Assembly: GCF_006274605.1 (NCBI RefSeq)
Contig: NZ_CP040846.1
Location: 806,001 to 870,000, forward strand
Reading direction: 5' to 3'
Origin: Thermococcus indicus
GTDB taxonomy: Archaea; Methanobacteriota_B; Thermococci; Thermococcales; Thermococcaceae
DNA length: 64,000 bases
The notes below the pieces were generated by a model. That model was given only the letters and a program-made list of their open reading frames with translations. It was not told where the DNA came from and ran no database searches. Below, in pieces: positions 40,125-42,328 of this stretch. Numbering within the stretch: the stretch's first letter is position 1; every line of letters starts with the position of its first letter. Made by a program: the position numbers and the translations under genes.

Positions 40125-42033
40125 GTTCACGGGCAACTGGTTCGTAGATGCCGGCATTTTGGGTTTCTTGAATTTGATGGAAGAAGTTTACGGCTGGGAC
40201 CTTGAGGAGCTTCAGAAACGAATTAATGAGAATCGGGAGAAGGTCTATTATGGGTATTTTCCGCTGGCTTACTTTTACAATTTAGCCCCTAGGAGCCAAG
40301 AGAACAAAAGGATTCTATCTCAGGCAATTAAAGAAATTGAAACCTTTGATGGAGATAAACACGAGTTGCTGGAGCTGATATGGTGGAAATATATAGCCCA
40401 GCTATTTACTAACGTGTGGATTAGGAAGAAGCTTGAGATGATGCACGAGAAAGACTTAAAGAACAAAAGCGGGAAAATAAAGGATCCATACAATGATAAC
40501 AGGTATGTAGAATTCGTAAAGAAGCGCGAAGAGCTCCTTAATGTAGTTCTTAAAATGGAAGGCAATCCCATCAAAGAGAAGAAGTGTGCCGATTCAATTA
40601 AGAAACTTATTGGAAAAAGAGAAGTGATTAAAGATGGCAACCACAGATTGACCCTGAAAGATTTTGAGGAACTGATTAAGCTATTCTCTGAGTCCTCAAG
40701 CCCACTAAACGAGTTACTCGAGGAGTGTAAAGTTAAGACAGAGGAAGCCATTGAAATTCACAAGAAGTTGGAAGAATATTTGATGAAAAAATGGAAAGAA
40801 CTCTCATCGAACTCATTCGTGGAATATGGAAGTGAAAAGCTAAAGAATTCCTCAAAATTTTATAGATTGCCAATAGACTCCAGCTTTTATCACAATTACC
40901 AGTTCTTTAATCAAAGCAAGGGCATCATCGAACAGTTCAGAGCGTTCAGGGATGTCCTTGATGGTAAAATCCACCACATCTCCCGAGATGTTTCCAAGTT
41001 CCTTCCCTCAGACAATGAATTCCCAAACGTGTCCTATACCAAGTTCAACATAAAACCTCTCCAAAAAGTGGTTGAATATTTGCCTGTGTATCTAATTTGC
41101 GTGGATAAAGGAATGATTGACGTGAATTATAGTGATATCGGGAAGATATTGTTCTATGGGAGTGACCTAAAGTTTGCCTACACCGTAAACAGAAAATTAA
41201 AGGAGTGGCTAAAAACACTGCAGGATAAAAACTCGATTTTCAGGCTAACGTGGAGGGCAGTTATAGACACAATAGTGGAAACAAAATCAAGTTACTATCT
41301 CGAAAATATGTATATAATTCAACTTAACCGCAATGAAAAGGGCCAGATAATAATACCAACTCAGCAAACTTTTGTAAAAGTTGAGTACCTCGGTATTCCC
41401 AAGCTCCACGCCTCGATAATCCTCGACGACCAGATAAGGGAGGCACTTAATACCCAAATGCCCATTGACATTCTGGATAAGTCCAAAAACAAACCTAAGG
41501 ACAAATTGAAGTGGAGCGACTTCAAAAAGGCTTGGTTACTTGAGGTATTTATCTCTCAGAGACCAATGTTCCCAGTAGTTCTAAGGCATTCTAACTTTTA
41601 CCTTAGAATTGGAAAGAAACCCCTTTTGACGTCAAGCCTCTACGCCCTGGCAATAGACGCGGAACTCAGAAAACCCATGGGTGCTGGCATTTTTACGTGG
41701 GAGTTCTTTGAACGTCCCAAGAGTGCAGTTTCAGAGATAAAGGAATTTTACAACGACATGCAGATGGCTTTGAACGTAATAAAGCGAATCTCTGGGCAAA
41801 TACGCGGAAAAGACATCCTGCCCCAGCTGTTTTCTGCCCTGAGAAGGCACAACAGAAACGCCTTTGTCAATACGCTCCTCAAGGCACTCTTGAAAGCTAA
41901 TGATAAACAGGCGGTCGCTCTAATCAACTCCTACCTCTTCAAACATGTTTTGAACAACGATTCCTCATGGGAGGATTTTGCCCTTGCCCTTGTTATTGGT
42001 CTTGCCGGAGGTGGAAGCAGTGGGGAAAGTTGA
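40105..42033 (+). CDS. cst1: Cas8 (Cst1) large subunit of Cascade
   Basis: The 642-residue protein starts at ATG 40105 behind GGTGAAGATTG and matches the Cst1/Cas8 large-subunit type by its N-terminus ([21 protein letters not shown]) and its position between cas6 and cas7. The first half is lysine- and AT-rich. The C-terminal ~95 residues (from [12 protein letters not shown] to [15 protein letters not shown]) resemble the next small ORF. The large subunit reads the PAM and recruits Cas3. The subtype call I-B/Tneap rests on the gene set. Confidence 0.85.
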
Positions 42034-42328
42034 TGACCCCACCCTACGAGATATTAAGAGATTGAGCGGTGAAGTATTAGGTAAGGTCAGCTCCGACAGT
42101 TACAGACAGAAGCTCGTCTTCGACCTGTTAAACGCGGTTAAAGCTAAAGACCAGAACAGGTTTCTCTGGATTCTACTAAGGGCAATCAACGCCCACTCCA
42201 AGGACACGTCAGAGAATGTCAAAAAGCTCTCTTCCGTGCTCATGGAGGTCTTTCCTTCTTCGGAGTCTGATTTTGAAAAGATCGCTTATTCCATCATACT
42301 TGGGATAATGGGAGGTGGTAGGGAATGA
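42020..42328 (+). CDS. Small Cas11-like subunit candidate
   Basis: The 102-residue helical protein starts at GTG 42020 behind GGAGGTGGAAGCA, with 14 bp of overlap with cas8. IKRLSGEVLGK (12-22) matches [11 protein letters not shown] of the Cas8 tail, and FEKIAYSIILGIMGGG matches [13 protein letters not shown] at its end; the middle is amphipathic helices in both. I infer that it is a tandem copy of the Cas8 C-terminal domain acting as Cas11. Small-subunit function is not proven. Confidence 0.65.
   Translation: MGKVDDPTLRDIKRLSGEVLGKVSSDSYRQKLVFDLLNAVKAKDQNRFLWILLRAINAHSKDTSENVKKLSSVLMEVFPSSESDFEKIAYSIILGIMGGGRE

Follow-up and report, generated by a model that had tools for sequence, protein, structure and literature searches.

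Introduction

In the type I-B Cascade of Synechocystis, three copies of the small subunit Cas11b and the C-terminal domain (CTD) of the large subunit Cas8b form a belly that supports the non-target DNA strand (PMC11096372), and Haloferax without Cas11b has fewer Cascade complexes and impaired interference (PMC11899642). Cas11b is produced by internal translation of cas8b in Haloferax volcanii (PMC11899642), Synechocystis (PMC11096372) and Thermotoga maritima (PMC13199841), and a 2026 paper names type I-B as one of the systems in which Cas11 has no gene of its own (PMC13199841). We analyse here a stretch of 64,000 nucleotides from Thermococcus indicus (RefSeq assembly GCF_006274605.1, contig NZ_CP040846.1, positions 806,001 to 870,000; hereafter the window, in whose coordinates all positions are given) that holds a type I-B operon with a small separate gene behind cas8b. 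We conclude that this gene is probably a cas11b, coding for the belly subunit of type I-B Cascade, that arose by duplication of the cas8b 3′ end; it looks like a clear natural example of a stand-alone subunit arising, in one lineage of heat-loving archaea.

The locus shares with the internally translated systems the inferred role of the subunit and the domain concerned, the Cas8b C-terminus. In those systems, however, one gene yields a Cas11 and a CTD that are identical, whereas here the gene is separate, its product has about 27–31% identity with the Cas8b CTD and cas8b has no strong internal start. Like Csa5/Cas11a of type I-A and Cse2 of type I-E, the subunit has its own gene, and a Cas11a-containing Cascade chain is the best, weak match of its modelled fold in the PDB, but a sequence search against solved structures found no chain matching the small protein. 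The idea that small subunits are related to large-subunit C-termini dates from 2011 (PMC3150331; also PMC6452270) and is the same evolutionary idea as ours; that scenario rests on helix counts and structures at deep divergence, whereas here both copies are adjacent and have measurable sequence homology. The Cas11b family itself is already catalogued in PADLOC, whose model PDLC01541 covers exactly this gene, but the catalogue states neither the paralogy with the adjacent Cas8b nor the loss of an internal start. In the open-licence literature we found no description of the side-by-side paralogy, the mutually exclusive signals or the replacement pattern.

The small gene and the Cas8b C-terminal domain

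A preliminary description of the window had suggested that the small open reading frame is a duplicate of the Cas8b C-terminus, on the strength of an 11-residue motif with seven identities and of similar I-x-G-x-x-GGG ends. Both sequences lie where it placed them (the CTD as in Table 1, the small frame open from 41978 to 42328), and the similar ends are real and conserved, in the form I/L-x-G-x-x-GG(G). The motif alone is weak evidence, because in 7 of 200 trials the shuffled small protein matched full-length Cas8b at seven or more positions of an 11-mer; the likeness is nevertheless genuine and spans the whole domain. The small protein aligns end to end with the neighbouring CTD at a local score of 96, against 25.2 ± 4.4 for shuffled sequences, none of which reached 96 in 5000 attempts, and the neighbour pair outscored all 300 shuffles in each of 13 genomes. 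Profile alignment gave the same picture (hhalign probability 93%, E = 2.4e-7, 83 colinear columns running into the Gly block of both proteins), and searches with the small protein of the window recovered the adjacent Cas8b CTD in every genome carrying the gene. By these alignments, the Cas8b CTD and the small gene are paralogous. The CTDs of bacterial Cas8b1 match Cas11b as well (hhalign E = 2.1e-7), and no similarity was detected between Cas11b and the internally encoded small subunits of the type A and type B cas8 genes described below; at the level of sequence, the likeness is specific to Cas8b CTDs of this kind and of the bacterial Cas8b1 kind.

The supported start is a GTG five bases behind GGAGGTGG, which gives a protein of 102 residues. 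The gene is under purifying selection, the median ratio of non-synonymous to synonymous substitution rates (dN/dS) being about 0.10, with about 0.18 for the Cas8b CTD. All 12 scanned relatives match, as the window protein does, the PADLOC model of Cas11b as type I-B small subunit, PDLC01541, a model possibly built from these proteins, which also matches the Cas8b C-terminus (E = 0.0027). Other PADLOC Cas11b models gave a weak match to the small protein (PDLC01190, 0.007) or none at E 1 (PDLC01193); in the phylum PDLC01190 had no match and PDLC01193 two weak ones inside longer frames. AlphaFold predicts with confidence a five-helix bundle for the 102 amino acids (predicted local distance difference test, pLDDT, 87.9; predicted template modelling score, pTM, 0.82), and lower-ranked PDB matches of this model include a Csm-complex chain and Cmr5. 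In all complete loci the gene is flanked by cas8b and cas7. Its identification as Cas11b is therefore supported by profile, operon position and predicted fold, the fold being Cas11-like in the model and not proven Cas11.

Distribution of cas11b

Cas8b of the window's type, PDLC01542, is present in 14 of the 115 genomes of the phylum that we surveyed, and cas11b follows in all 13 cases where the cas8b 3′ end is intact, the fourteenth being cut by a contig end. The preliminary description had raised the question of whether all Cst systems have the gene, and the answer is no: set against these 13 loci are 58 Cst2-type loci without it (within L078–L137), in each of which the cas8 frame directly adjoins cas7. 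As Cst2-type Cas7 is present in 57 genomes, most Cst2-type loci lack the gene. Representatives of the 58 loci belong to three other Cas8b types, namely type A (PDLC01396), type B (TIGR01908/PDLC01278, the true Cst1) and PDLC01589. One genome (G010) holds a locus of each kind, one with cas11b and one without it that has a strong internal start. Searches of genome contigs, plasmids and viral contigs, sensitive to close relatives only, found no stand-alone relative outside Thermococcaceae, and no further bacterial Cas8b1 genes were found in viral contigs. At one locus (L043, genome G060) the front half of the large subunit may have been exchanged: the N-terminal half of Cas8b is unlike that of the other nine, while the C-terminal half closely resembles theirs.

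Translation signals

As a measure of Shine–Dalgarno (SD) strength at ATG, GTG and TTG codons inside cas8, we took the duplex energy to the 3′ end of 16S rRNA. Among the 58 loci that lack cas11b, 57 have their best internal start 88–134 codons before the end of cas8, at the position where a Cas11 reading would begin, with an energy of −10.2 to −15.5 kcal/mol; the sole exception is a 155-residue cas8 fragment. Of 1049 internal starts, no more than 59 have −12 kcal/mol or better, nearly all of them at this site. Where cas11b is present, by contrast, the best site in that region of cas8b has −2.4 to −4.9 kcal/mol, which is ordinary among internal codons, and the SD of cas11b itself has −10.2 to −13.1 kcal/mol across the 13 loci. 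The two signals exclude one another (Fisher's test, 2e-13, a value to be read with care as the loci are related).

Among cas8 types, GGAGGTG is encoded by differing codons (within FGGD, SEVLG and FFGGE), and the start residue of type A varies between V, L and M with a codon that is always GTG, TTG or ATG. The same heptamer in different codons, and a start codon kept despite changes of residue, point to selection on nucleotides at the internal site. We infer that these starts are used for Cas11; across Thermococcaceae, such signals predict internal translation of Cas11 from cas8 of at least three other Cas8b types. In three bacterial Cas8b1 genes that lack cas11b, the internal start that ranks first or second also lies 98–108 codons from the end, though it is weaker.

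The signals at the ends of the genes are also ordered. In the other loci, the cas7 SD lies within the last cas8 codons in all 57 cases where the cas7 start was found. With cas11b present, in all 13 loci, the SD of that gene is written in the Gly block of Cas8b and the SD of cas7 in that of Cas11b. An internal ATG is kept in cas8b in all 13; in the window it stands at the first codon of the CTD and is a probable relic of an internal Cas11 start.

Origin of cas11b and alternative explanations

The strong internal cas8 start of loci without cas11b makes the small gene look like a stand-alone replacement of an internally translated Cas11, and an SD for the next gene inside both Gly blocks would be expected from a tandem duplication of the cas8b 3′ end. 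Other Cst2-type operons of the phylum appear to obtain the small subunit by translating cas8 from within, and their cas7 SD lies in the last cas8 codons. We propose that duplication of the cas8b tail would have placed one terminal GGAGG before the new copy and one before cas7, the new gene thereby gaining a strong ribosome-binding site at once, and the internal SD of cas8b would later have decayed with its ATG left behind. The suggestion of the preliminary description that a separate gene could be the duplicated, stand-alone form of the small subunit is supported by paralogy, profile, operon place and the strong internal starts where the gene is absent; as to direction, duplication of the operon's own cas8b tail is favoured over capture of a related gene. 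By homology with described Cascades, Cas11b may be present in the complex and contact DNA, several copies lying beside the Cas8b CTD and holding the non-target strand during R-loop formation. As CTD and Cas11b are no longer identical, they may be tuned to separate positions. On balance we think it probable, with less assurance than for the identity and descent of the gene, that an arrangement of one gene for two proteins was resolved by tandem duplication of the 3′ end, the terminal ribosome-binding site being copied along, which allowed translation of the new gene from the outset, and that the two products have become specialised since then, each for its own place in the belly.

Related operons, once within a single genome, differ in their apparent way of making the small subunit, so that the birth of a stand-alone subunit, and the gain from freeing the small from the large subunit, become directly testable. 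For the rebuilding of Cascade from these archaea, the comparison shows which extra gene or internal start needs to be expressed.

Several results weigh against this account or allow others. The loci of the survey are related, so that the counts are not independent events. The top PDB match of the Cas11b model is weak (7tr6_E, type I-A Cascade; TM 0.52, probability 0.87, E = 0.41, among 350,542 chains), and the comparison of predicted structures proposed in the preliminary description succeeded for Cas11b only, since the Cas8b model is poor in the CTD (pLDDT about 22–59) and, while it too has five helices there, does not allow direct comparison of folds; a PDB search with the modelled CTD was uninformative. 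The Met of the internal cas8b start is invariant in the alignment, which would permit residual internal initiation. Finally, the tree, in which bacterial CTDs were used to root the duplication, is an unrooted three-way split into Cas11b, archaeal CTDs and bacterial CTDs, and does not show descent of Cas11b from this cas8b.

On such a tree the small gene, although working as Cas11b, might instead come from a different type I-B1 system, perhaps as the tail of a bacterial Cas8b1, and have been inserted behind cas8b by capture. Cas11b does match the CTDs of bacterial Cas8b1 no less well than that of the adjacent Cas8b, and 12 of 12 scanned Cas11b proteins match the tail of the bacterial Cas8b1 model PDLC02050, but local duplication would leave just such a tandem position and repeated terminal GGAGG, the bacterial CTDs stand apart from Cas11b in the tree and the searches outside Thermococcaceae, within their sensitivity, returned no stand-alone relative; we therefore regard capture as unlikely. 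Slightly less likely still is a mixed belly, in which a CTD-only small subunit from the internal cas8b ATG is used together with Cas11b. Retention of that ATG in every locus would fit, as would the case of Haloferax, where initiation takes place at an internal Met behind an SD of no more than modest strength (PMC11899642), yet the internal SD is far from the −10 kcal/mol or better of loci without cas11b.

In the tree, Cas11b and the CTD separated earlier than the 13 loci, which would fit an ancestor with a small-subunit gene of its own beside the fused CTD, other lineages having lost that gene and gained internal starts. This history would require loss of the gene and gain of an internal start in each of at least three Cas8b types and in the bacterial Cas8b1 genes, and we consider it improbable. 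That two helical proteins resemble each other by chance, the small gene being unrelated, is hardly credible: chance could produce the 7-of-11 motif by itself, but the whole-domain score and the hhalign profile match reject this explanation, and the recurrence in 13 genomes, purifying selection and the PADLOC family also speak against it.

We also considered whether the Cas8b CTD is the faster-changing copy, which profile matches and site counts (6 versus 3) suggest and tree branch lengths do not; we therefore do not put this forward. In Thermococcus paralvinellae (G109; loci L015 and L042), cas11b groups with those of G108 and G114 and the Cas8b CTD does not do so tightly, a possible sign of recombination between copies.

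The operon and neighbouring genes

The operon runs cas6, cas8b, cas11b, cas7 (Cst2), cas5 and cas3, and is followed by cas4, cas1, cas2 and an array of clustered regularly interspaced short palindromic repeats (CRISPR; Table 1). Cst2-type Cas7, Cas5t and the I-B Cas1, markers of the Cst/Tneap kind of type I-B, all score above profile cut-offs. The Cas8b of the window has no match to the Cst1-type Cas8b TIGR01908 or to any NCBIfam or Pfam family; as it is of type PDLC01542, the system is type I-B with Cst2 and not a full Cst1–Cst2 system.

Table 1. Features of the type I-B operon and adjoining genes, in window coordinates
Feature	Position	Strand	Evidence or remark
cas6	39384..40124	+	TIGR01877 above cut-off
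cas8b, type I-B large subunit	40105..42033	+	PADLOC PDLC01542, E 1.6e-202
Cas8b CTD, paralogue of the small protein by alignment	41758..42030	+	hhalign and shuffle test
Conserved internal cas8b ATG at CTD start	41758..41760	+	weak SD in front, −2.6 kcal/mol
cas11b SD GGAGGTGG, written in Cas8b Gly-Gly-Gly codons	42007..42014	+	−13.1 kcal/mol
cas11b (probable), stand-alone small-subunit gene, 102 amino acids, GTG start	42020..42328	+	PDLC01541 E 1.7e-43; five-helix model; purifying selection
cas7 SD GGAGGTGG, written in Gly-rich Cas11b C-terminus	42311..42318	+	−14.8 kcal/mol
cas7 (Cst2), overlaps cas11b stop (ATGA)	42325..43785	+	TIGR02585 above cut-off
cas5 (Cas5t)	43782..44648	+	TIGR01895 above cut-off
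cas3	44639..47572	+	TIGR01587 above cut-off
cas4	48740..49249	+	TIGR00372 above cut-off
cas1 (I-B type)	49259..50245	+	TIGR03641 above cut-off
cas2	50950..51207	-	PF09827
CRISPR array, 30-nucleotide repeat, spacing about 66 nucleotides	51730..54884	+	

Cas7/Cst2 is 394–487 amino acids long in loci with a stand-alone cas11b (486 in the window) and mostly 327–376 in other Cst2-type loci, and that of the window has additional charged stretches. An archaeal gene of the ATPase_2 family lies between cas3 and cas4 (47630–48736) and a second ATPase-like gene upstream of cas6 (38006–39253). Behind cas1 there is a second PD-(D/E)XK nuclease-like reading frame, with cas2 on the opposite strand (50205–51207).
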